Part shown: piece after piece, positions 42,226-60,118 of the stretch
Numbering within the stretch: the stretch's first letter is position 1
How the letters are laid out: each line of letters starts with the position of its first letter
The notes under the pieces: generated by a model
What the model saw: only the letters and a program-made list of their open reading frames with translations
Told to the model about the DNA's origin: nothing
The model's database searches: none
Translations under genes and position numbers: made by a program
Assembly: GCF_026343945.1 (NCBI RefSeq)
Contig: NZ_JAPKNJ010000001.1
Coordinates: 310,001 to 374,000, forward strand
Length of the DNA stretch: 64,000 nt
Direction: 5' to 3'
Source of the DNA: Kaistia algarum
GTDB lineage: Bacteria > Pseudomonadota > Alphaproteobacteria > Rhizobiales > Kaistiaceae

Positions 42226-42585
42226 TTAGTACATCCAACGAGACCAATCTAGCTCGCTGCCCGATACGAGCACCGCGCGCTCTTTCCGCTGGGCGCGAAC
42301 GGGGGTGCTGTCGATCATCTGGATGTTGCCATGGTGCACGGCGGTGATGGCATCCATCAGCCGGCTCCACACGCCCGCCTTTCGCCATCGCACGAAACGG
42401 TTGTAGCAGGTGGCGCGAGGGCCATAGCGCTCGGGCAGGTCACGCCACGGCGCACCGGATCGCAGGACCCAGAAAATGCCGTTCAACACACAGCGATCAT
42501 CCACCCGCGGCACGCCTCTGGGCTTGTTGGGCAGAAGCGGCTCGATCACGCGCCACTCGAAGTCGGTCAGATCATATCGGCTCAT
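42226..42585 (-). mobile_element. IS5-family (IS427-like) transposase orfA, 3'-truncated
   Basis: A 119-aa product matching the N-terminal part of IS427-group transposases: SRYDLTDFEWRVIEPLLPNK, RVDDRCVLNGIFWVLRSGAP, DLPERYGPRATCYNRFVRW and the first catalytic Asp in QMIDSTPVR. After that it departs from the expected VHQHG... sequence and stops. OrfB is absent. It is a dead fragment marking the left border of the accessory island. Confidence 0.8.
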
Positions 42586-42833: not shown

Positions 42834-43483
42834 AAACGAAGATTGGCACAGCGGCGCTCCAGCGCCAACGGTTTATGGGTTCACGTCCTAATACGCGCGA
42901 GCGCCGAAACCAATCGGCACGACATTGGCATTGAAGGCAGCCGTCTGTAATTTCCTTCGGAAGCCGACGTACGGCACCGCTAGTCAGGTTGTTCCCATGC
43001 TCGTGGGCGAGTCCTCGTGTTAGATGCTTCGGCTTTGTCGAGGGTACAACACGTATGCCTTGCTACGCTGATCTGTTGGGCATTTTCAACCAACTTGACG
43101 TCGGGACATTCGGCCTCGGCGCCGGGATACACCGAATATGAGGATATCCTCCTATCGCGCGATAGGCTGTCCTCACTGGCTCACCTCAGACTCACCGCTC
43201 GCGAGTCGACGGCAGCACGAGCCGCTCGCCGATATTGCCTGGAAAGATGGACCTCCTCTCAGGTTGAACGCCTGCTCAACTGCTGCGGTCGCGTATAGAG
43301 AGAAGGCCTGAATTCTGCTCGGTGTCGTCCCACCTCCGCCAATCGGTAGGACCAGTGCGTGAGAGGCAGTCCGTTGCGGAATCCAACGCCGGCTCTGCAT
43401 TCAGTGAAGCTACCGGACACCGATCAGTTGCAAGCAGTTCGCCGCTACACTAACCTCCGTAGCAACATCATGGAGATGCCTCT
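42834..43483. other. Intergenic region at the island border
   Basis: About 650 bp without a convincing gene. Short frames, for example 43017-43298 on the plus strand, lack ribosome sites and family patterns. Composition shifts to lower GC toward the TIR gene. It presumably holds the promoter of the TIR gene and an island junction. Confidence 0.5.
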
Positions 43484-46153
43484 ATGCGGCCGCCTTCAGT
43501 ATTTATTTCCTACTCGCATGCAGACGAATGGTTAAAGTCCGAGCTGATCACTCACCTGTCCGCACTGAAACGCAACGGCGCTATAGAGGTCTGGCACGAC
43601 CGACTCATTCCTCCTGGGAATTTATTAGCCGATGATATCGACGAAAAAGTTAACACATCCGATATATTTCTCTTCCTTGTCAGCCCCGCTTTCATAGAAT
43701 CCGACTACTGCTTTCACAAGGAGTACGAAACAGCGAAGACTCGGCAAGAACTTGGCGAGGCAGTTATCGTTCCAATTATCGTAAGAGAAGGTGACTGGGA
43801 TGTAGGAGGTCTTCGGAACTACAATGCTCTGCCGCCAGACGCTATAGCTGTAGCAAAGGACGCGTTGGACCGCACCCAACCTCAACAGCGTGATGGAAAG
43901 TGGGCCGCTGTGGTCGACGGCCTCAAATTGGTTCTCCAAGCTCTAAAAAAAAAGCGAACGCCTCCAAGCCTCCCGCAGGACTATATTGACCGTCTTTTTA
44001 TTGTTGACTTCATTCGTCATCCATCTCTCGCCGAATTTGACGAGCGTCGGATATTTGTAGATCCTGATATTTACTATGAGAACCGTAAGGAACAACTCAC
44101 AAGCTTTGAAGCATTTGCGGAATCCATAAAGCTGCAACCTGTCTCCATAATTACAGGCGGTGACCGTTCGGGGAAATCACTACTAGCAAAGAAATTGCAG
44201 TTCTTTCTTGACAGCTGCGAAGAACCTACCGCCTATATACGTGGCCGCTCAATCAAGAACGCGGATATTGTCGGTATCGCTGAACGCGCAATTCGATCGC
44301 AATACGGTGATACACCATATGATAGACGTTCTTTCTCGATTGTTATAGATGACTTCGATGAGTGCACGCTGGCGGACAACATTAAAGAGCGCATGATCGC
44401 GCTATTATCTGAAACATACGGTAGAATTATACTTTTTTCTTATACAAGCGCGCCGTCTGTTCTTTTTGCTGCAGACGGACTGCCCGACCCTCACGTCTTC
44501 AATATTAATCAATTGGCTCGCGACAAGGTATATCGCATCGTATTTAAGTGGAAAGAAATAGGTCTTTCTTCAGGATTAGTTCCTGATGATCGACACTTTT
44601 TAGAAACACTGGAAAAAATAAATCTCATATTTGACCAATCTGAGATTGAATGCTCTGCCTACTCGACCGTAACGTTTCTTGAGCTTCTCGACAACGCGGT
44701 CGGTGGCGATATTGCGATTTCGTCGTTCGCTTCCTGCTACGAAGCTTTGATTACCGCACGCCTTCAAACTGCGCGCGTTGATTGGCATAATTTTGACGAA
44801 GCCAAGAACTTCTTGGCCTACCTCGCTTTTCAGTCATTTGCTACCGTTGAATCCAGAGATGTTTCATCCGAGATGTTCGAGTCGGCACTGGATTTATTCG
44901 AACAGCGCTATCTTTCATCAAGGGCCGCACTGAGCCGGATGGCACTGGGATCCTTTCTTACGAAAGACGAGGACGGCGGCTATTTTTTCCGCGAAGAGTA
45001 TCTATGGTATTTTCTATGCGCCCGTCACGTTGCCAAAGACCTATCGGTCGATGACCGGACATCATATGAGAGATTTGTTAAAACGTGTTCGATGAACATA
45101 TTCCAGAAGAAGTACGCAAACATTGCTATATTTATCGCATACTTCTCATCCGACAACCTTGTTCTGAGCTGCTTGACCGACACACTTAAGGGACTATTCT
45201 CTAAGGCGGAAGCGTGGGAACTTTCGGACGGAATTCGGGAGATAATGCTCGGTATCGGCCCCGGCACTGGCCTATATATCACTGCATCCAATGACGTAGA
45301 TCGAAATCGTCTTGCGATTCTTCGCGAGAAGATAAACGACATAGTGGGTGACGCGATGAAAGTCGTGGCACGATATACGCTTCCATTTCTTCACTCTAGT
45401 ATCGCCGATTCCGAATTCGTAGAAGCAATTAGTAGCGACGAGATCGACGGGGATTCGTACATGCGCAGTGTGAATGCGCTACTGCGAACGCACTCTGTCC
45501 TTGGTCAAATATTGTCGACGCGTGCTGGAACATTCGGCGCTGATGTTCTTCTAGATTGTATAACAAACATGGTGCACGCTAGCGGAAGGTATGCGTCACT
45601 GAATCACGCCATAGCAACCGTCCTCATGCATGAGGACGATGAGACCACTCATGCTGAGGTTCAGCGTGCAATTTCTGGTGACTTGTCCCCACAAGAAAAA
45701 CTCAAGAAGGTTCAGCGGATATTCGCTTTCTGGTCTGTGTACCTATCTCAAGCTGGCTTGGCGCGGTATCTCAGCAACGCTCACGCGATCCGAGCATTAG
45801 AGACATTGCGCGACCGCAATGAAATCGAGAGTCGCCTCCATCGCGATCTTCCATTTAACTATACCAGTGTTCTCATAATTGCGAGATTGTACCATACAGG
45901 AAAAATAAGCAGGACTGACATTGAGGATTGCTTAGAGCGTTATGGCCCTCACAGCGCAGTCTTACAATTGCTGAAGGTCGCGATCCATATCTATACGTAC
46001 TATATGCCCCTTGAGACTGAGGAAAAGCAGTGGCTGGCCGCTAAGCTCTCGCTCCCGGTGCAGAAGCTTGAGGCGCAGCGGTTTCGCCGTTCTGCCATTG
46101 GTAGGGACATAATTCGTAAGACGCGGATACTTCCAAATCCAAAAAGGGATTAG
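43484..46153 (+). CDS. TIR-domain STAND-like NTPase, probable antiphage defence protein
   Basis: An 889-aa protein. Residues 1-145 form a bacterial TIR domain (VFISYSHADEWLKSELITHL, EVWHDRLIPPG, DIFLFLVSPAFIESDYC, KEYETA), with the expected NADase glutamate at E80. A P-loop NTPase follows: Walker A GGDRSGKS at 225-232, Walker B FSIVIDDFDE at about 284-293, and a sensor-like RIILFSYTSAP near 315. The remaining 500 residues are helical with no recognised repeats, probably the sensor. TIR-STAND proteins typically deplete NAD+ or make a signal when a phage protein is detected. GGAG precedes the ATG. The gene is clearly AT-richer than its surroundings and sits among phage and IS remnants. Confidence 0.85.
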   Translation: MRPPSVFISYSHADEWLKSELITHLSALKRNGAIEVWHDRLIPPGNLLADDIDEKVNTSDIFLFLVSPAFIESDYCFHKEYETAKTRQELGEAVIVPIIVREGDWDVGGLRNYNALPPDAIAVAKDALDRTQPQQRDGKWAAVVDGLKLVLQALKKKRTPPSLPQDYIDRLFIVDFIRHPSLAEFDERRIFVDPDIYYENRKEQLTSFEAFAESIKLQPVSIITGGDRSGKSLLAKKLQFFLDSCEEPTAYIRGRSIKNADIVGIAERAIRSQYGDTPYDRRSFSIVIDDFDECTLADNIKERMIALLSETYGRIILFSYTSAPSVLFAADGLPDPHVFNINQLARDKVYRIVFKWKEIGLSSGLVPDDRHFLETLEKINLIFDQSEIECSAYSTVTFLELLDNAVGGDIAISSFASCYEALITARLQTARVDWHNFDEAKNFLAYLAFQSFATVESRDVSSEMFESALDLFEQRYLSSRAALSRMALGSFLTKDEDGGYFFREEYLWYFLCARHVAKDLSVDDRTSYERFVKTCSMNIFQKKYANIAIFIAYFSSDNLVLSCLTDTLKGLFSKAEAWELSDGIREIMLGIGPGTGLYITASNDVDRNRLAILREKINDIVGDAMKVVARYTLPFLHSSIADSEFVEAISSDEIDGDSYMRSVNALLRTHSVLGQILSTRAGTFGADVLLDCITNMVHASGRYASLNHAIATVLMHEDDETTHAEVQRAISGDLSPQEKLKKVQRIFAFWSVYLSQAGLARYLSNAHAIRALETLRDRNEIESRLHRDLPFNYTSVLIIARLYHTGKISRTDIEDCLERYGPHSAVLQLLKVAIHIYTYYMPLETEEKQWLAAKLSLPVQKLEAQRFRRSAIGRDIIRKTRILPNPKRD

Positions 46154-46328: not shown

Positions 46329-48746
46329 CTATTTGCCCCGAGCAAACGGGTGCTGGAAGTTCTTCTCGCGGTCCTGAATGGACATGCCTTCCTCGTCCCC
46401 GAAGTGCGGACGGTAGGCGAGCATGAAGCCGGTCTTTCCGTCGGCGAGAGGCAGCGGAACGAAGCCGAATCCCTTCGGGAGCCGGTCCTTGTAGAGTTCC
46501 TGCAGTCCCTCGATGGTGTCCGGTACGACCGCGTCGGTGAACGTGGAGGGCGCGGCCGATTCCATCTGCTTGGGGAGGATTACGCCAGTCCCGCGCTGCG
46601 GAAGATTGACCAACGGAGGACGGGTCTCCAGCTTCATCGACGTTCCCGGCACCAGCACGATAGGCATGGCGCCAGCCGCGTCGTCGGGATTGTCGTGAGC
46701 GACGGCGTAGGCGCCGCTCGAATTGGCCGCCGCATAGGAGCTATCGAGGGAGACGTGCTCGACTGAGCCGTCCCCTGCGAACAGCTCCCTCGCGCTCCTC
46801 CCGACCTGCTTCAGCTCATCCTCATAGACCTTCACCGTGTTCACCGGCTGTCCGGTGTTGGGATTCGTCACGTCGAACCCGAGGGAGACGCGGGGCTGAG
46901 GCTTGCCGTTCTCGTCCATCCAGATCGGAGGCAGATCGGTATTCATCGAGAGCATGTAGGTGCCCCCATTGGACGGAAGGACTTCGATGCGACCCTTCAT
47001 GCGAGTGACCGCGTCGGTGATCGCCTTGTAGGGGTCGAGGATGCCGTGCGCCTCATATTCCGTGAACGTCCTCATTACCTCGTTGGCGACTTCTTGCCGA
47101 ATGTAGCTGGGCGCTTGGACGCTATCGCCGAAGAGACCTCCCCACGATCGCCCGCCGATGACGGAAGACAGCGTGTCGTTGATCGCCGTGTTGAGCTTGG
47201 CGACGCTCTTTTCCTGCGTATCGCCGAAGACCTGAGCCCACGTCGGGACGCTCTTCGGATCGCGATTTCGCAGGGAGTTGACGTAGGCCGCTGCCTTGTC
47301 CCACCCGTCGTGCGTCGAGTTCTGACGCTGGATGACCTGATCGAAGTAGCGAGACGCCGCATCGTTCAGGAACGAGCCGGTCACCAGACTGACGCCGCGC
47401 TCGTGCTGGATCACATCCAGAAGCTGAAGCGCCTTCATCTGCGTCGCCGGATCGTTGAACGACATCAGAGCCGAGCTGAGCTGAGCCTTGTAGTCCTCCG
47501 GGATGTTGCCGTTCGTCTTCGCGAGGATCAGCCCGACCTGGGCGGGATCGCCGCTCAGGATGCTGTCGATGCCCTTCGCCTTCAGATAGGTCGGCAGGTA
47601 CTTCTTCATCACGTCGACATCGAGCGGCGAACCGTTCAACATCGCGTCCACATGCTCGACGTTGAGCTGGATATCCACGCGCTTGTCGAGAGCCTTCTGG
47701 ACGGTGCCCATGAGCCCGTCGATGGCTGAGCCCGCGCCGTACTTGTGCTCGGTCGCGATCATGTCCGAGACGAGCACATTGATCTCGTCCTGAGACATCG
47801 TCTCGATCTTGCGGGCGCGCTCGTCGAGCGCCTTCACGGCACCGAGCGCCTCCATCGTGTTGATCTGCATGTGATCCGACACGGCCTTCTCTTCGACCGC
47901 CGCATAGGCGTCGGGGAAGGACTCAGCGAACGACTTGCCGTTCACTCCCGTGCCGGGCTTCTGAAGCACCGACAGCATCGAGATCGATTTGTCGGGGTTC
48001 AGCTTGATCGCAGCGGAGACCGCAGCGGCGACACGGGGAGCGGCTTCGCTCGGGTTGAGCGGATCGAGCGTGCGCGCGGCCGAGACGTAGAACGCGAGGC
48101 GATCGGGAGTGAAATCTCCAGCCTTCGCTTCGGCCGCGATGACGGACTTGAGGTTGTCGACGCCCTGCGAGATCTGGATGCGGACGGCGTTCTCTTGGTG
48201 CGTCGCAACAGTCTGTTCCGAGCCCTTGTAGAAGGCCGCGAGGATCTGCCCTTCGAGTGCGGGATCTTCCGCACCCGACAGGTTGTCCTTCACCCACTGG
48301 TCCCGCGCGGCGACGATATCGCCCTTCGGGTTCTTCGGAGCGAAGTCCTCCAGATACCACTTGTTGAAATCCTGGACCGCGTCGTAGCCGGTGCGCCCGG
48401 CGACCAGAGACCGATAGGTGTCGAAGTAGTCGAGGTCGTCCTGCTGCGCAGCGTCCATCGGTCGGCCCGCATAGAAGTCGCCCTGGGCTTGATCCTTCTG
48501 CGCAGCGTTCTCTTGCTCGATACGCTGGCGCTCGCCGATCATGATGCCGTCGCGGACGCTGCTCAGAGCGCCGGAGGCGGCGCCGAAGAACTGACCAAAG
48601 GCGTTGGAAAGGCCGTCCAGTCCCTCGGCCGTGGAGCGGAACTCCGGGATGGCGCGAGGAACGACTTGCGTCTGGACGGTAGGGGACGTGGTGGAGATCC
48701 CCGAGCCTCGGATTGAGGTACGAGAGGATCGGATTTCCTTCGCCAT
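46329..48746 (-). CDS. Podovirus-like internal virion protein
   Basis: An 805-aa soluble protein rich in Ala, Gln and Asp, with helical segments and no signal peptide. The early part (EFRSTAEGLDGLSNAFGQFF, YDAVQDFNKWYLEDFAP) and overall size and composition resemble internal core proteins of T7-like phages (gp15 class). This is pattern recognition, not a demonstrated homology. It is GC-rich, so unlike the adjacent TIR gene. No capsid, portal or tail genes remain nearby, so it is an isolated structural gene from a degraded prophage. Confidence 0.55.
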   Translation of the reverse strand: MAKEIRSSRTSIRGSGISTTSPTVQTQVVPRAIPEFRSTAEGLDGLSNAFGQFFGAASGALSSVRDGIMIGERQRIEQENAAQKDQAQGDFYAGRPMDAAQQDDLDYFDTYRSLVAGRTGYDAVQDFNKWYLEDFAPKNPKGDIVAARDQWVKDNLSGAEDPALEGQILAAFYKGSEQTVATHQENAVRIQISQGVDNLKSVIAAEAKAGDFTPDRLAFYVSAARTLDPLNPSEAAPRVAAAVSAAIKLNPDKSISMLSVLQKPGTGVNGKSFAESFPDAYAAVEEKAVSDHMQINTMEALGAVKALDERARKIETMSQDEINVLVSDMIATEHKYGAGSAIDGLMGTVQKALDKRVDIQLNVEHVDAMLNGSPLDVDVMKKYLPTYLKAKGIDSILSGDPAQVGLILAKTNGNIPEDYKAQLSSALMSFNDPATQMKALQLLDVIQHERGVSLVTGSFLNDAASRYFDQVIQRQNSTHDGWDKAAAYVNSLRNRDPKSVPTWAQVFGDTQEKSVAKLNTAINDTLSSVIGGRSWGGLFGDSVQAPSYIRQEVANEVMRTFTEYEAHGILDPYKAITDAVTRMKGRIEVLPSNGGTYMLSMNTDLPPIWMDENGKPQPRVSLGFDVTNPNTGQPVNTVKVYEDELKQVGRSARELFAGDGSVEHVSLDSSYAAANSSGAYAVAHDNPDDAAGAMPIVLVPGTSMKLETRPPLVNLPQRGTGVILPKQMESAAPSTFTDAVVPDTIEGLQELYKDRLPKGFGFVPLPLADGKTGFMLAYRPHFGDEEGMSIQDREKNFQHPFARGK

Positions 48747-51010: not shown

Positions 51011-51577
51011 CTATGGCTCAACGGCTAGTTCCAGCGCCCGATAAACGCTGCCTCGCCCTATCCCGAGCGCCTTTGCGATCTCGGTCACGGTCTTGCCTTC
51101 GCGATGCAGCGCCCTGGCGTCGTCCGCCTTCAGCTTGGCTGTCGGCTTGCGACCCGTGTATTTCCCCTCTGCCTTCGCCTTGGCGATCCCCTCCCGTTGG
51201 CGCTCCAGCATCATCTCGCGCTCAAATTGGGCGAAGCCGGAGAAGATGTTCAAGATCAGACGGCCCGTGGCACTACGGGTGTCGACTGTCTCGCCCCCAA
51301 GGTTCAGCACCCGCAGCGCCACACCCTTCCTGTCCAGTTCCCGCACGATATCCCACAGGCCGACCGTGGAGCGGGCCAAGCGGTCAACCTTCGTGACCAC
51401 GAGCGTGTCTCCCTCGCGGGCGAAGTCCATTGCGGCCTTGAGCTGCTCTCTGGGGGCGATGGAGGAGACGTGCTCCGCATAGAGCCGTTCGCACGCTGCG
51501 GCCTCCAGGTCGCGACGCTGGGCAAGCAATCCCGCCTCCTGTTCAATGGTCGAGGTGCGGGCGTAACCGATAAGCAT
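51011..51577 (-). CDS. Serine recombinase (resolvase/invertase family)
   Basis: A 188-aa small serine recombinase. It starts MLIGYARTSTIEQEAGLLAQ with the catalytic serine in YARTST, followed by the REGDTLVVTKVDRLARS and GRLILNIFSGFAQFEREMMLERQREGI motifs. The C-terminal HTH contains GKTVTEIAKALGIGRGSVYRAL. The frame is open to 51658, but the ATG at 51577 begins the fold. Such enzymes resolve cointegrates or invert DNA in transposons and phages. No matching Tn3-type transposase is nearby, so it marks a partial element. Confidence 0.85.
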   Translation of the reverse strand: MLIGYARTSTIEQEAGLLAQRRDLEAAACERLYAEHVSSIAPREQLKAAMDFAREGDTLVVTKVDRLARSTVGLWDIVRELDRKGVALRVLNLGGETVDTRSATGRLILNIFSGFAQFEREMMLERQREGIAKAKAEGKYTGRKPTAKLKADDARALHREGKTVTEIAKALGIGRGSVYRALELAVEP

Positions 51578-51755
51578 GATGGGCTCCGAAATGTCCGATA
51601 GGCTCCAGGCTATCGAGTCACGTCGCGTCCGAAATGTCAACACCATTCTATTGGACATCTTTGAGCGACCAAACGGACACGTCCGCTAGGGCAAGGTCCA
51701 TTGGACAGAAGCGCACTCCCAGCCCAATGTCTGACGCGCTTGGGGAGGTGCGGAT

Positions 51756-53948: not shown

Positions 53949-54668
53949 TTAGATCGTCCGTCCAACCCACCGCACTCGACCGACGATATGCAGCTTGTCG
54001 AGCATGTCGGCGGAAATGATCTCGGGATCATAGCGCACGTTTTCTGAGATGAGCGAGACGGTTCCGTCAACTTTGCGGTGCACACGCTTCACCAACAAGT
54101 CGCCATCCTTGACGATGACGTAGATGCAGCCGTTGCGAACCTCGCGGATCGACACGTCGACCAGCATTAGCGCTCCGTCGGGGATCAGGGGTTCCATCGA
54201 ATCCCCGTCCGCCGTCAGCACCGCGGCATTGGCCGCTGAGACACCGATCTCGCGGAGCCAGTCAGCCCGGAAGGCGACGCGTTCGGAAATATCCTCCGAA
54301 ATCGGACGCAGACCGTGCCCTGCCGATGCGGATACCTCATAGCGAGGCACGAAGGCGAACTCATTCAGGTGCGTCGTGAGGCTTGCCGTCAGCGCACTGG
54401 CCTCCTCATCAGCGAGGATTCGGTTGCCCCGGCCCGTCGCCAGCCATTCAACGGATACGCCACCCGCCTTCGCTAGAGCGATAAGAGTGCCGAGATTCGG
54501 TTCACCTCCGTGAAGAAGCTTGTGTATGCCCGCCTGCGAAATGCCGGCGTCAGTGGCAAAAGCCGCCTGTGTCGACCCATCCATAAGTGCCCGCAGGCGA
54601 TCGGAAAACCCGCCTGAAACCTGCGGTTCTGAAGAGATTGCGGTGACGCGTGATTTTGTCTTCACCAA
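53949..54668 (-). CDS. Phage repressor, HTH plus S24 peptidase domain
   Basis: A 239-aa CI/LexA-type repressor. The HTH lies at about 20-75 (FSDRLRALMDGSTQAAFATDAGISQAGIHKLL), and an S24 domain at about 125-230 has the nucleophile serine in ADGDSMEPLIPDG and the general-base lysine in GDLLVKRVHR. It keeps the prophage silent, and RecA-stimulated self-cleavage would make it damage-inducible, unlike Mu's own c repressor. The start is TTG at 54668 or GTG one codon later. Operator-like repeats lie between it and the rightward Ner-like gene. Confidence 0.88.
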   Translation of the reverse strand: MVKTKSRVTAISSEPQVSGGFSDRLRALMDGSTQAAFATDAGISQAGIHKLLHGGEPNLGTLIALAKAGGVSVEWLATGRGNRILADEEASALTASLTTHLNEFAFVPRYEVSASAGHGLRPISEDISERVAFRADWLREIGVSAANAAVLTADGDSMEPLIPDGALMLVDVSIREVRNGCIYVIVKDGDLLVKRVHRKVDGTVSLISENVRYDPEIISADMLDKLHIVGRVRWVGRTI

Positions 54669-54725
54669 AGCAATCGTTCTCGTTGACGGAAATCACCTAA
54701 GAGATTATGGTCGTCACCAAAGTGA
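54662..54725. promoter_or_regulatory. Phage operator region with rightward early promoter
   Basis: Three spaced elements are seen: TCACCAAAG (54662-54670), AATCACCTAAGAGATT (54691-54706) and the dyad TCACCAAAGTGA (54714-54725). A promoter TTGACG (54683) - 17 bp - TATGGT (54706) points to the Ner-like gene, with the middle element filling its spacer. Repressor binding would shut the early promoter, while the first copy overlaps the repressor start codon. Confidence 0.6.
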
Positions 54726-54728
54726 TTA

Positions 54729-55073
54729 ATGCTCCCTAAAAAGCCGGCGTCCAATGCCGGCTCCAAGGTCGGGGATAAGCAGGTGCGGCAACAACAAAAG
54801 CCGAAAGGCTGGGATCGACACGCGATCAAGGCGGAGGTCCATCGTCGAGGTGGCACCCTCGTCGAAATCGCCCGTGAAAACGGCCTCGAACCGTCGTCCA
54901 CGAAGGTTGCCCTGCGCCGGCGGCACCGGGCAGGCGAGAAAGCGATTGCCGCCTTTCTCGGTGTCGACCCGGCCGATCTGTGGCCGGAGCGCTACCGCAC
55001 GGGATTCGCCCCGCGCTCCCTTCATACCGCAGGCCGGCACCGCGCGGCCAGTCTGAAACACACCGCCGCGTAG
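54729..55073 (+). CDS. Ner-like DNA-binding protein
   Basis: A 114-aa protein. Its centre (about 25-90: GWDRHAIKAEVHRRGGTLVEIARENGLEPSS, then AIAAFLGVDPADLWPERY) is the Ner/Nlp winged HTH family. In Mu, Ner turns down early and repressor transcription after induction. It is the first rightward gene behind the operator region. No ribosome site precedes the ATG, so translation may be leaderless or start elsewhere. The C-terminal 25 residues are a basic extension. Confidence 0.85.
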   Translation: MLPKKPASNAGSKVGDKQVRQQQKPKGWDRHAIKAEVHRRGGTLVEIARENGLEPSSTKVALRRRHRAGEKAIAAFLGVDPADLWPERYRTGFAPRSLHTAGRHRAASLKHTAA

Positions 55074-55092
55074 ACATAGGGGGACGCAACGC

Positions 55093-55239
55093 ATGCGCGC
55101 GCTTCTGGATGCCCTTCGATCGATGAGCCGGCGCGATGTCATCGCTCTGGCGATCGAGTTCGGCGCGGTCGGGCTCCTCTTTAGCGGGGCGGTCGTCGCT
55201 GCCAAGGTTGGCGAGATCATTCTGTCGGTGCCGCAATGA
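55093..55239 (+). CDS. Small membrane protein, phage early region
   Basis: A 48-aa protein: an amphipathic start (MRALLDALRSMSRRDVIALA) and one membrane helix (EFGAVGLLFSGAVVAAKVG). Its stop overlaps the next ATG (ATGA). Function unknown; such small membrane proteins are frequent in transposable phage early operons. Confidence 0.55.
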   Translation: MRALLDALRSMSRRDVIALAIEFGAVGLLFSGAVVAAKVGEIILSVPQ

Positions 55240-55340
55240 CGCGCCGGGTCGATCGCGTGAAGCTCTCGGCCTGGGCTGGGGTGATCCTCCTAGCCGCCTC
55301 GGCATGGCTCGTGCTCGCCATCACGCTCGGGGTGATCTGA
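55236..55340 (+). CDS. 34-aa membrane peptide, phage early region
   Basis: A 34-codon frame with a basic start (MTRRVDRVKLSAW) and one hydrophobic helix (AGVILLAASAWLVLAITLGV). It overlaps the genes on both sides by one to four bases (ATGA and TGATG), strong evidence of real, coupled translation despite its size. Function unknown. Confidence 0.55.
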   Translation: MTRRVDRVKLSAWAGVILLAASAWLVLAITLGVI

Positions 55341-55597
55341 TGGCCGCTGTCGTCATCGCATCCCAAAATGTGAAATCACCGACCGGCCTCTCCTACTTCA
55401 CCGGACAGATTTCGCTCGAGACCGCCGCCTCCGGCTGCCTCGTCTGGATACCGGGCACGTCGTGGTTCGCCGAGGAGGCGCTCCGCATCGCCGAGGTCGA
55501 AGCCGCGCGACGGCTTGTCGCGGAATTCTCCCAGCGCTCGCCGTCGTGGCGCTCGTGGTTCGTGATGATCGCCCATCGCGTGGAGGCTGCAGCGTGA
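55340..55597 (+). CDS. Small phage early protein
   Basis: An 85-aa soluble protein (SPTGLSYFTGQISLETAASG, EVEAARRLVAEFSQRSPSWR). It begins at the stop of the previous peptide and overlaps the next GTG (GTGA). No family recognised. Confidence 0.6.
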   Translation: MAAVVIASQNVKSPTGLSYFTGQISLETAASGCLVWIPGTSWFAEEALRIAEVEAARRLVAEFSQRSPSWRSWFVMIAHRVEAAA

Positions 55598-55830
55598 ACC
55601 GGCCGACGCTCCGCCAGCAATATGAGGAGCTGGAACTTCTCTATCTCGAGAACCGCAATTGGCTCGCCGATCTGGAGCGGGCCGGCAAACGGACGCCCAC
55701 GGAGCGAGGCTTGAAGGCGCAGCGTCTCCTGATCCTCCGTGCCGCTCGCAACACGCTCTTCCGGCTCGCCAGCGAAACACTGGACGGCGCCGGCGACGTT
55801 CGACCCTCCGACTTCGAGACCGCTGCATGA
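55594..55830 (+). CDS. Small helical phage early protein
   Basis: A 78-aa, strongly helical protein (LRQQYEELELLYLENRNWLA, RGLKAQRLLILRAARNTLFR) starting with GTG. It overlaps the genes on both sides by four bases. No family recognised. Confidence 0.6.
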   Translation: MNRPTLRQQYEELELLYLENRNWLADLERAGKRTPTERGLKAQRLLILRAARNTLFRLASETLDGAGDVRPSDFETAA

Positions 55831-56651
55831 CGACGATTCACGTCCCACTCAACCTGATCGACATCCCCGCTGACCGCCTTCGCGCGCTCGATGCCGAATG
55901 GGTCGAAGCGCTGGCCATGATGATGCGCCAGGAAGGCCAATTGCAGCCGATCACGCTTCGGCCGAGCGGCGATCGGTACTCGCTGGTCTTCGGGGAACAC
56001 CGTTTCGCTGCCGTCGCCCGCAATGGCTGGGCGGATATCGAGGCCAGCGTTCGGGAAATGACCGACGACGAGGCCCGCCTCGCCGAAATCGACGAGAACT
56101 TGATCCGCCGCGAACTCGGTCCGCTCGATCGGGCGCTGTTCCTGGCGGAGCGCAAGCGCGTTTGGGAGCGGCTTCACCCGCAAACGCGGGACGGTGGCGA
56201 CCGTAAGTCCTCGGAATTCAAGGCGAAAAATCAGATCGCCAAGTTGGCGATGCGGTTTTCTGAGGAAGTTGCGGAGAAAGTCGGGCTATCCGAACGTTCC
56301 GTGCAGCGCGCCTGCGACATCGCCTCCGGCCTCCGCCCTGATGCCGTCACCGACATCCGTCGCACCTATCTGGCGAACCATCAACGCGATCTCGAAGCCT
56401 TCTCGAAGCTCTCGCCCGACAGCCAGAGGATCGCGCTGGAGAAGCTGACATCCGGCGAGGCGGAGACCATCAAGGCCGCCTTCGCCGAGCCGGGCGAGCG
56501 CATCGGACCGCCGCCGGTAACGAGCGAAAAAATGCTCGGTCTCTGGTCCCGCATGGCTGCGAAGGAGAAGCGACGCTTCCTGGAGACGATCGGTGTCGAT
56601 GCTGACGCGCACGATCGTATCGTCAATCCGCGCAGGCGGGAGGTCCGCTAG
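55827..56651 (+). CDS. ParB-like N-terminal domain protein
   Basis: A 274-aa protein with a ParB/Spo0J N-terminal domain at about 1-90 (VPLNLIDIPADRLRALDAEW, EGQLQPITLRPSG, LVFGEHRFAAVARNG with the GEHRxxA box). A KorB/ParB-like HTH follows (about 120-180: RFSEEVAEKVGLSERSVQRACDIASGL). The GEHR motif is the CTP-binding box of the family. No ParA partner is adjacent. In Mu-like phages of this type it may bind phage DNA during transposition or regulate early genes; the role is inferred. The ATG overlaps the previous stop. Confidence 0.82.
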   Translation: MTTIHVPLNLIDIPADRLRALDAEWVEALAMMMRQEGQLQPITLRPSGDRYSLVFGEHRFAAVARNGWADIEASVREMTDDEARLAEIDENLIRRELGPLDRALFLAERKRVWERLHPQTRDGGDRKSSEFKAKNQIAKLAMRFSEEVAEKVGLSERSVQRACDIASGLRPDAVTDIRRTYLANHQRDLEAFSKLSPDSQRIALEKLTSGEAETIKAAFAEPGERIGPPPVTSEKMLGLWSRMAAKEKRRFLETIGVDADAHDRIVNPRRREVR

Positions 56652-56654
56652 GTC

Positions 56655-57140
56655 ATGGGCAAGCGCGCGGCCCGGCCAACAGAACAGGGCGACCTCTTCG
56701 CCGCCGCGGAGCTGTTCCCGGTGCGCCGCCCGGTCGAGCGCGTCCGGCCGGTCGATCTGTCCCTCCGCATCAAGACCGCTATGGGCGAGGCGCTGAAGAA
56801 ATCGCCGAAGAACGCCTTTGCCGTCGCTGCCGAGATCTCGGAAATGACGGGCCGCGAACTGACCGCCGACGCGCTCTATGCCTACACCGCCCCGACCAAG
56901 CCCGAACACGACATCTCGCTCACCCGCTTCGTCGCCTTCGTTCGCGCTACAGGCGCCAACTGGCTTTGGGGTGTCCTCGTCGAAGATGACGGGCTCATCG
57001 TGCTGGAAGGGCGGGAGGCTCATCTTGCCCAGCTTGGTCTCCTGCAGCAGGAGCAGGCCCGGATCACTGACCAGATCAAGACGCTGAAGGGCGAATTGAA
57101 ACATGCGCCGGTCACCGTGCGTAGGCGGGGGCGGACATGA
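56655..57140 (+). CDS. Phage early protein beside the transposase
   Basis: A 161-aa protein. After a basic start comes a helical core (RIKTAMGEALKKSPKNAFAV, AAEISEMTGRELTADALYAY) and SLTRFVAFVRATGANWLWGV, then a coiled-coil (about 125-150). The pattern resembles proteins encoded just before transposase A in rhizobial Mu-like phages. It overlaps the transposase ATG by four bases. No biochemical role is known. Confidence 0.65.
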   Translation: MGKRAARPTEQGDLFAAAELFPVRRPVERVRPVDLSLRIKTAMGEALKKSPKNAFAVAAEISEMTGRELTADALYAYTAPTKPEHDISLTRFVAFVRATGANWLWGVLVEDDGLIVLEGREAHLAQLGLLQQEQARITDQIKTLKGELKHAPVTVRRRGRT

Positions 57141-59056
57141 GAGAGTGGTTCTCGCCCGACGACATTCTATCTGTCGGATCGGCATCCCTGCCGGACAGCG
57201 TCCGTGGCTTCAACAAGCTGGTGCTGCGGGACGGCTGGCGAACCGATCGCAAGCGCGCCCGCACGGCCGAACGCCAGGGCGGCGGCTGGGAGTATCATCT
57301 ATCCCTCCTGCCCATCGACGCGCAGCGTCGCCTTATCGAGGCGGAGCGCGCTGGCGACGAAGACGCGGTCGAAGCCAGTTTGAGCCTCGTTTGGCAGGCT
57401 TTCGAGGCCTTGCCGCAGAAGGCGAAGGACGAGGCGGCATCACGCCTTGCCGCCGTCGATCTCGTAGAGACGCTGTCGCCTCAGATCGGCCGTCAATCCG
57501 CCATTTCTCAGGTTTCCGCCCGCACCTGCACGCCCGTCCGCACCCTCTATCGCTGGCTTCAGACGGCGGCGGCCGTCGCCCGTGCCGACCGGCTTGCCGC
57601 GCTGGCGCCGCAGCGTAAGGGCGGCACGGCAAAGGCCGACTGCGATCCACGCGCCTGGGACTATCTCGTCGCGGACTATATGCGGAAATCCCAGCCAGCC
57701 TTTGAGGCCTGCTATGGTCGGATGCTCGACGCCGCGCGCGAGCATGGATGGTCGCCGATCCCCTCGGCGAAGACGCTCAAGCGCCGTCTGGATGCGCAGT
57801 TCCCGCCGAGCGTCCAGGCGCTTGCCCGCAAGGGGACGCGGGCCGCGAGCGCGATCTTCCCGCACCAGACGCGCGACCGCTCGATCTTCCACGCCATGGA
57901 GGCGGTCAACGCCGACGGTCACCGCTTCGACGTGTTCGTGCGCTGGCAGGACGGCACGATCGGCCGCGTCATGATGACGGCCTTCCAGGATCTCCATTCC
58001 GGCATGATCGTCGCGCATCGGCTCGACCGTTCCGAGAACTGGACGGCGGTGCGCCTCTGCCTCGCCGACATGATCGAGGCCTATGGCGTGCCGGACCATG
58101 TCGTGTTCGACAATGGTCGCCACTTCGCCTCGCATTGGCTGACAAACGGGGCGAAGACGCGGTTCCGCTTCAAGATGCGCGACGACAAGCCAGACGGTGT
58201 GCTCGTGGCGCTCGGCGTCCAGGTCCATTTCGCGACGCCCTATCACGGCCAGGCCAAGCCGATCGAGCGCGCCTTCCGCGACATGTGCGAGGAGATCGCC
58301 AAGCACCCGAAATGCGAGGGCGCCTATACCGGCAACAGCCCGGTCGCAAAGCCGGAGAACTACGGCAAGCGGGCCATCCCGATCGACGATTTCGCGGCGC
58401 TGGTGAAGGCGGAGATCGCCCGGCACAACGCTCGACAGGGCCGTCGTTCCGCCGTCTGCAATGGCAGGTCCTTCGCCGAAACCTTCCGCGAGAGCCTGGA
58501 GGCGCCGGGGACGCTGGTCCGCCGGGCGACAGCCGAACAGCGCCGGCTCTTCCTGCTCGGCGCCGAGGGCGTCACCTGCCTCCGCCCGACCGGCGAGATC
58601 CACCTCGCCAACAACCGCTACTGGGCCGAACCGCTCGCCGACCTCGCCGGGCGTCGGGTCACGGTCCGCTTCGATCCGCAGAATTTGCACCTGCCCGTCG
58701 CGATCTACCGGCAGGACGGATCGTTCCTCTGCGAGGCGGACTGCATCGACAAGACGGGGTTCTTCGACAGCGAGGCGGCCTCGGACCATAGCCGCCGCAA
58801 ACGTCAGTTCGTGAAGGCTCGCCGCGCCGTGCTGGACATGGAGCAGCGCCTCACCATCGACGAGGCCGCCGCCTTCCTGCCGGCGCCGCCGCCGATCGAG
58901 CCCGTCATGCCGAAGGTCGTCCGCATGGTTGCCGGTGCTGGTTCACGGCCAGGCCAAGCCGAAGTCTGGGACAGCGAGGCCTTCGGCCGTGCCGTCCGGA
59001 TGCTGGAGGGGGACGTCGTGCCCTTCCGGCAAAAAGAAGACGGGGGCGGCCGCTAG
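57137..59056 (+). CDS. Mu-type transposase A
   Basis: A 639-aa DDE transposase. An N-terminal winged-helix and HTH region (about 1-150: MREWFSPDDILSVGSASLPD, the Mu HTH start) is followed by the RNase-H-like core. Its acidic residues are at D260 (EAVNADGHRFDVFV), D325 (HVVFDNGRHFAS) and E377 (AKPIERAFRDMCEEI), in good register with Mu A D269/D336/E392. The beta-barrel and C-terminal tail complete it. It binds the phage ends and joins them to target DNA. The E377-containing PIER motif shows the catalytic core is intact. Confidence 0.95.
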   Translation: MREWFSPDDILSVGSASLPDSVRGFNKLVLRDGWRTDRKRARTAERQGGGWEYHLSLLPIDAQRRLIEAERAGDEDAVEASLSLVWQAFEALPQKAKDEAASRLAAVDLVETLSPQIGRQSAISQVSARTCTPVRTLYRWLQTAAAVARADRLAALAPQRKGGTAKADCDPRAWDYLVADYMRKSQPAFEACYGRMLDAAREHGWSPIPSAKTLKRRLDAQFPPSVQALARKGTRAASAIFPHQTRDRSIFHAMEAVNADGHRFDVFVRWQDGTIGRVMMTAFQDLHSGMIVAHRLDRSENWTAVRLCLADMIEAYGVPDHVVFDNGRHFASHWLTNGAKTRFRFKMRDDKPDGVLVALGVQVHFATPYHGQAKPIERAFRDMCEEIAKHPKCEGAYTGNSPVAKPENYGKRAIPIDDFAALVKAEIARHNARQGRRSAVCNGRSFAETFRESLEAPGTLVRRATAEQRRLFLLGAEGVTCLRPTGEIHLANNRYWAEPLADLAGRRVTVRFDPQNLHLPVAIYRQDGSFLCEADCIDKTGFFDSEAASDHSRRKRQFVKARRAVLDMEQRLTIDEAAAFLPAPPPIEPVMPKVVRMVAGAGSRPGQAEVWDSEAFGRAVRMLEGDVVPFRQKEDGGGR

Positions 59057-59101
59057 AGACGGCCACCCCCGAATGTAGTCACGAAACAGAAGGACCATCT
59101 C

Positions 59102-60118
59102 ATGTCGGAAACTTCGGGACAAGAGCCGGCGGGCGGCTGGGGCGAGCCGAAAGGATCGCCAAAGCTGTTGGACGCCGATTTGCGGGACTGGCGCGAGGTG
59201 CGTGGTCAGATCGTCGCCCATGCCATGACGCAGAACCTGACGCGCTCGGATGTCGCCCGCGGGTCGACCATTCCCTTACCCACGCTGACGCAGTGGATCG
59301 ACGGCACCTATGCCGGTTCCTACATCAATACGACGGAGCGCGTGCGTCGCTATCTGTTGACGATGGAGGGCGCGCGCCAACAGGTGCTCGCCCTGACCGC
59401 GCTGAAGGCGCCCGGCTTCGTCGAGACGCCGTCGTCCCGCGAGCTGATCGACACGCTCGCCTACGCGCAATCCTCGCCCGAACTGATCGTTGCCACGATG
59501 GCGGCCGGCATGGGTAAGACCACCACCTGCCGCGAATATGCGTCGGGTCGCTCGGCCGTCTTCGTCGTCACGATGCGGCCGACGACGTCAGGCGTGCACG
59601 CGATGCTCCAGGAGCTGGCGCAGGCGCTTGAGGTGCCGGAGCGCAACCCCGCGCGGCTCGACCGCTCCATCGGCGAGCGGCTGAAGCGCAACGGCCGCCA
59701 TACGCTGCTGATCGTCGACGAGGCGCAGAACCTTGCCGACAAGAGCGTCGATCAGCTCCGCTACTTCCTCGATCTCTATGGCTGCGGCATCGCGCTGGTC
59801 GGCAATGAGGAGGTCTATACGCGCTTCGGCAAGCCGGAGCCGCGCGCCGGCTACGGCCAGATCCATCGCCGTGTCGGCAAGCGGATGCAACGGATGGCGC
59901 CGCTCGACGGCGACATCGCCGCCTTGCTCGACGCCTGGGAGGTAGAAGACGGGGAATGCCGCCGCCTGCTCGCGGCGATCGGCCGGAAGCCGGGCACGCT
60001 CGGCCAAATCGACAAGACCTTGCGCCTCGCCGCGATGATCGCGGCCGGCGGCGGCACCCCTGTCGTTGCCGACCATATCCGCTCGGCCTGGCGCAACCGT
60101 TCCGGGGAGGCGATCTGA
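59102..60118 (+). CDS. MuB-type ATP-dependent target-DNA activator
   Basis: A 338-aa AAA+ ATPase. An N-terminal HTH (about 25-80, LTRSDVARGSTIPLPTLTQW) precedes Walker A AAGMGKTT (near 135-142) and Walker B HTLLIVDEAQN (near 200-210). C-terminal helical domain ends GGTPVVADHIRSAWRNR. MuB binds target DNA, activates transposase A and gives target immunity. It follows the transposase after 45 bp with AGAAGGACC before the ATG, and its last base overlaps the next gene. Confidence 0.92.
   Translation: MSETSGQEPAGGWGEPKGSPKLLDADLRDWREVRGQIVAHAMTQNLTRSDVARGSTIPLPTLTQWIDGTYAGSYINTTERVRRYLLTMEGARQQVLALTALKAPGFVETPSSRELIDTLAYAQSSPELIVATMAAGMGKTTTCREYASGRSAVFVVTMRPTTSGVHAMLQELAQALEVPERNPARLDRSIGERLKRNGRHTLLIVDEAQNLADKSVDQLRYFLDLYGCGIALVGNEEVYTRFGKPEPRAGYGQIHRRVGKRMQRMAPLDGDIAALLDAWEVEDGECRRLLAAIGRKPGTLGQIDKTLRLAAMIAAGGGTPVVADHIRSAWRNRSGEAI

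Follow-up and report, generated by a model that had tools for sequence, protein, structure and literature searches.

The closest characterized relative of the protein described here is DS-8 (DefensePredictor system 8; NF053861), a single protein that combines a metallophosphatase with a NACHT domain and is reported, from plaque tests, to protect E. coli from phage (DefensePredictor paper, PMC13092281). According to the same source, this protection required metallophosphatase residues together with a NACHT residue, and the authors consider, by homology with human SMPDL3A, that the metallophosphatase degrades a cyclic nucleotide, which is still unidentified (PMC13092281). The TIR-NLR of P4-like satellites is described as a single-gene antiphage protein with a TIR domain and a STAND NTPase, and exchange of its N-terminal domain (SIR2, nucleases) is reported as well (Rousset et al., 2022, PMC9122126). 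PDC-S60 is a candidate label for phage defence in PADLOC, and no paper using it was found in the open-licence literature. In Thoeris, the TIR protein ThsB acts with a separate effector. At the level of titles and abstracts, no TIR on the NTPase-sensor body of DS-8, referred to below as the chassis, was described in the open-licence literature; PMC7159879 and PMC8195603 could hold such architectures.

The DNA analyzed here, called the window, is a stretch of 64,000 nucleotides from Kaistia algarum. It contains an open reading frame at positions 43484–46153 on the forward (+) strand, which runs uninterrupted from ATG to stop and encodes a protein of 889 amino acids, designated P0001. A Shine-Dalgarno-like GGAG was recognized by sequence inspection 8 bases 5′ of the ATG (43472–43475, +). 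Since its close relatives are 40–67% identical over the full length, P0001 is more than a chance reading frame. The gene is AT-rich, as the original prediction had noted, with a GC content of 47.6% compared to 63.4% for the whole window, and a GC3 of 48.9% compared to 68–86% in six other window frames. The gene, which is complete, looks acquired, is apparently a single-gene system, and probably represents a functional defence gene.

The N-terminus of P0001 is a TIR domain (residues 6–105; 43499–43798, +), which was matched by the Pfam families TIR_2 (residues 6–105, E 1.1e-14) and TIR (residues 7–100, E 7e-7). Its best PADLOC match was the ThsB-type model PDLC00420 (residues 4–124, E 1.1e-34). 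Conservation was assessed in an alignment of 48 sequences (A1), comprising P0001, 44 close TIR relatives, and the three distant proteins P0052, P0053, and P0057, with the six short relatives P0012, P0045, P0047, P0049, P0050, and P0051 left aside. Residue E80 (codon 43721–43723, +), which we take from general knowledge of TIR NADases to be the catalytic glutamate, was a glutamate in 48/48 sequences, so that the TIR domain is intact, as predicted. The P-loop NTPase that follows has a Walker A motif, GGDRSGKS, at residues 225–232 (44156–44179, +), with G225, G230, and K231 present in all 48 sequences, and a Walker B motif, IVIDDFDE, at residues 286–293 (44339–44362, +), in which D289 was likewise invariant (48/48). 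Thus, Walker A lies where it had been placed, and Walker B is present but starts at residue 286 and not 284. Despite both motifs, the Pfam search of P0001 gave no NTPase family above the cut-off.

The C-terminal half had been considered unclassified, with a sensor that could be new, and neither claim withstood comparison with known defence families, in which a high-confidence match was found. The NCBIfam model NF053861 (DS8_antiphage) matched residues 179–856 of P0001 (44018–46051, +) at E 3.3e-64, covering model positions 327–993 of 994. The score was 217.1 bits, below the curated equivalog cut-off of 790, and the TIR replaces the metallophosphatase; therefore, P0001 is not DS-8 itself. P0001 showed no Metallophos match in Pfam, and an hhalign comparison of the TIR with the metallophosphatase returned a probability of 3.5%. 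The PADLOC profile PDLC05050, labelled PDC-S60, matched residues 190–772 at E 5.7e-23, a match that was judged without the PADLOC cut-off, and the same profile also matched the metallophosphatase proteins P0078 and P0079. These two, the ones scored among the six metallophosphatase-type proteins, reached 843.7 and 849 bits, respectively, on the DS-8 model, and thus lie above its cut-off. The unrelated TIR-caspase protein P0054 did not match the DS-8 model. The expectation of about 500 C-terminal residues with no recognized repeats held, as no repeat family was found among the Pfam matches to P0001 listed up to E 1. A PDB search with the family profile returned TIR-bearing chains and two weak P-loop chains.

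When the P0001-type chassis was compared with the metallophosphatase-type chassis by hhalign, the two profiles were aligned at E 8e-49 with an identity of about 17%. In order to test against similarity confined to the P-loop, the comparison was repeated with the sensor only, using 52 close TIR rows against the six metallophosphatase-type proteins. Residues 360–889 matched the sensor profile of the metallophosphatase (DS-8) type at E 3.5e-29 over 471 columns with 15% identity. Single members also matched the sensor profile in 5/5 cases (P0078, P0101, P0099, P0052, and P0057; probability 95.6–99.3%), of which the matches of P0078 (283 columns) and P0057 (only 179 columns) are partial. The controls were clean: the last 500 residues of eight out of eight other TIR- or repeat-bearing proteins stayed below 1% probability, as did 10/10 column-shuffled profiles. 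By these profile comparisons, the part of P0001 from about residue 165 to 889, with the P-loop NTPase and a sensor half in which Pfam finds no domain, belongs to the DS-8/PDC-S60 chassis as a divergent version. P0001 and DS-8 are thus both single proteins with an N-terminal enzyme, a P-loop/NACHT NTPase, and homologous C-terminal sensors, whereas the enzyme is a metallophosphatase in DS-8 and a TIR in P0001. With only 15–17% identity between the chassis, a shared trigger or mode of activation should not be assumed. The satellite TIR-NLR resembles P0001 in carrying TIR and STAND NTPase in one gene, but its sensor is described as consisting of tetratricopeptide repeats (PMC9122126), and by that description it is set apart from the DS-8-like sensor of P0001, which has no Pfam repeat. 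What is new in P0001, as far as these comparisons reach, is therefore the pairing of a TIR with a DS-8-like chassis, along with the swapping of effectors around it, and not the type of sensor.

A search with the chassis of P0001 (residues 165–889) returned 73 proteins at E ≤ 1e-5, including P0001 and further TIR proteins. Five of these relatives (P0084, P0087, P0091, P0089, and P0090) had chassis 46–49% identical to that of P0001 and carried an alpha/beta-hydrolase with the nucleophile motif HSLGG at the N-terminus; in P0089 and P0090, the start of the hydrolase domain is missing. P0084 exceeded the Pfam cut-offs for DUF676 and Abhydrolase_6, P0091 that for Abhydrolase_6, and P0087 that for DUF676 by 0.1 bit. 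The only match of P0089 was to DUF676, below the threshold, and P0090 had none, so both were placed by alignment and motif. In all three of the hydrolase proteins scored (P0084, P0087, and P0091), the match to the DS-8 model was confined to the chassis. Distant chassis matches with a metallophosphatase were P0099, P0101, P0102, and P0103. Since TIR, hydrolase, and metallophosphatase each occur on a DS-8-type chassis, one NTPase-sensor chassis is found, at the level of sequence homology, with three unrelated enzymes, and the metallophosphatase of DS-8 now appears as one among several effectors that can be exchanged. The hydrolase fusions of the P0084 type are possible hydrolase-type antiphage receptors in their own right. 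Five further proteins (P0012, P0047, P0049, P0088, and P0093) have the chassis without an effector domain, which may reflect truncated gene calls, split genes, or loss of the effector.

A second TIR group was found in gamma-proteobacteria (P0052 and relatives), with 405 proteins at E ≤ 1e-5 to the chassis of P0052, 120 of them listed. These TIR-NACHT proteins of Vibrio, Shewanella, Pseudoalteromonas, and relatives (P0052, P0104, and others) have the same order of TIR, NTPase, and DS-8 sensor as P0001, but their chassis are only about 18% identical to that of P0001. By hhalign, with a profile built from 28 of the 115 returned members over 800 amino acids, their chassis was nearer to the metallophosphatase type (E 1e-107) than to the P0001 type (E 1.5e-39). 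The TIR of P0001 was 39–45% identical to the TIRs of this group (23 rows listed), and the TIRs of the unrelated proteins P0056 (44.5%) and P0058 (45.6%) were equally near. Consequently, the TIR is no guide to the direction of the effector exchange, and has the appearance of a mobile effector module. The chassis trees, which included 19 of the 52 close TIR rows of the hhalign profile, were ambiguous in this respect. In the best rooted tree of 41 rows, from which P0057, P0099, P0101, and P0103 were removed because of their long branches in a 45-row tree, the hydrolase clade (100/100) was nested within the TIR clade, and the 45-row quick tree gave the same nesting. The alternative topology with all 19 TIR rows in one clade was not rejected (p-AU 0.277), and a tree without outgroups cannot tell the direction of exchange.

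Within the close family (45 rows), the best-conserved stretch of 40 residues was 681–720 in the sensor half, with a mean identity of 0.77, followed by the first 40 residues of the TIR with 0.74. The adjoining segment GQILSTRAGT (residues 674–683; 45503–45532, +) contains G674 and R680, which were invariant in A1, and its GQ(I/V)(I/L) portion was kept in the gamma-proteobacterial TIR rows and the metallophosphatase rows of a mixed 15-row alignment. The stretch 681–720 and GQILSTRAGT may together form a structural or ligand-binding core. The sensors of many STAND receptors evolve fast, and the sensor half of this family is unlike them.

The distribution of the gene is sporadic. A full-length P0001-type gene was present in one of 14 genomes of the genus, which is the genome of P0001 itself, and an order-level search of 397 genomes (E ≤ 1e-30) found it full-length in the same genome only, with one more genome having the TIR only. 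Named relatives occur in Mesorhizobium, Chelativorans, Rhizobium, Methylobacterium, Ensifer, and Bradyrhizobium. The DS-8 model gave matches in 17 out of 398 genomes of the phylum at E ≤ 1e-20, none of which was above the cut-off, and in one of 14 control genomes (Bacillus subtilis). In 11 of the 19 DS-8-model matches listed for the phylum search, coverage was limited to the metallophosphatase end of the model (ending at or before position 298). These 11 (L105–L114 and L116) are open frames of 214–1181 amino acids, the longer of which may put a metallophosphatase on other chassis. Among 72,556 plasmid records, 41 matched, with four of the matches covering 80% or more of the protein; these four are three Vibrio TIR proteins and a Paenisporosarcina protein annotated as a metallophosphoesterase, with an Eco57I-type methylase gene 1 kb away. 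The family was matched in 0/50,697 phage records, and relatives were seen at seven loci of IMG/VR viral contigs, where five match beyond the TIR region and the best segments are 24–42% identical. A phage-borne family is unsupported by these numbers.

The surroundings of the gene had been described as insertion-sequence and phage remnants next to a Mu-like prophage, a picture that was borne out in part. A fragment of an IS4/5 transposase (DUF4096) lies to the left at 42226–42585. The frame directly downstream (46329–48746, −) encodes 805 amino acids with a host-like GC content of 62.6%; searches of PHROGs, Pfam, and phage records gave no match to it and thus lend no support to a phage origin. 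A serine recombinase of the resolvase/invertase family is encoded at 51011–51658 (−), in the interval that separates the TIR gene from the Mu-like genes. The Mu-like prophage genes, an S24 repressor, the MuA transposase, and MuB, are indeed present at 53949–60118 (Pfam, PHROGs), but "next to" holds only loosely, as 7.8 kb separate the stop codon of the TIR gene from the repressor gene and the three genes lie 7.8–14 kb off. That the gene is cargo of this prophage is unsupported, though not wholly improbable, given that its stop codon is at 46.15 kb and the repressor, MuA, and MuB genes occupy 53.9–60.1 kb. The left flank gene, in which GGDEF and EAL motifs were read from the sequence, matched one congener at 65% and others at 51–55%. 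In four congener stretches extending about 10–18 kb past this gene, tblastn (E 1e-8) matched none of the window frames to the right of 42.1 kb; the region is thus variable in these stretches, and a clean junction could not be drawn. Direct repeats of at least 18 bases flanking the gene were absent within 40.5–52 kb. Among the relatives, L002 has a phage integrase gene 2.9 kb away, L003 a resolvase gene just upstream, and the Vibrio plasmid relative L118 a recombinase-family gene nearby. Pfam and PHROGs recognized no defence gene among selected window frames, and Pfam found no known defence domain in 10 neighbors of the relatives L002–L005, half of which (5/10) had no match at all.

By analogy with DS-8 and the TIR-STAND receptors, we consider it fairly probable that P0001 is a single-gene STAND-type antiphage receptor in which a DS-8-like NTPase-sensor controls a TIR. 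The sensor half would bind a phage-derived ligand, ATP binding by the NTPase would drive oligomerization, and the clustered TIR domains would cleave NAD+, by which the infected cell would be stopped. The original prediction of a TIR-STAND-like NTPase with a probable antiphage role is thus strengthened by the homology of its body to an experimentally validated antiphage protein. Points against the receptor reading are the high conservation within the sensor half and the absence of recognized defence genes among the selected neighboring frames searched. That the same receptor would answer plasmids, integrative elements, or general cell damage instead of phages is an unlikely reading: no phage trigger is known and some relatives reside on plasmids or near integrase or resolvase genes, but DS-8, the nearest characterized relative, is reported to be validated against phages (PMC13092281).

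The similarity of the TIR to the ThsB model (E 1.1e-34) would suit a Thoeris-like role, in which the TIR makes a signaling nucleotide for a separate effector and does not deplete NAD+ itself. We regard this as quite unlikely, as no effector partner was seen among selected window frames, where a ThsA-type effector in particular was sought with PHROGs and Pfam, or among the 10 neighbors of L002–L005 checked with Pfam. While ThsB is separate from its effector, the TIR of P0001 is fused in one chain to its own NTPase and sensor, and related bodies carry a self-contained hydrolase or metallophosphatase at the same place. Finally, its atypical composition, the adjoining transposase fragment, and its presence in one of 14 genomes of the genus could mark the gene as a decaying passenger that sits in a variable region and has no function today, but its 889 codons are uninterrupted, its catalytic and Walker residues are intact, and it aligns with its relatives over the full length, which makes this highly improbable.

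The antiphage receptor with its own TIR effector thus being the preferred reading of P0001, a broader proposal can be put forward tentatively, and we lean somewhat against it at present. The DS-8-type NTPase-sensor would be an effector-agnostic chassis that takes a TIR, an alpha/beta-hydrolase, or a metallophosphatase interchangeably; the metallophosphatase of DS-8 would then be a triggered cell-arrest effector and not a cyclic-nucleotide modulator, the hydrolase form would be a new antiphage receptor of the lipase or esterase type, and the conserved segment around residues 641–720 would have a single conserved ligand. Those TIR and hydrolase forms that were scored lie below the DS-8 cut-off, and consequently annotation by NF053861 would not tie them to DS-8. 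A TIR or a hydrolase at the position of the metallophosphatase makes two views testable, namely that the DS-8 enzyme is simply a plug-in effector and that several enzymes share a single type of sensor.
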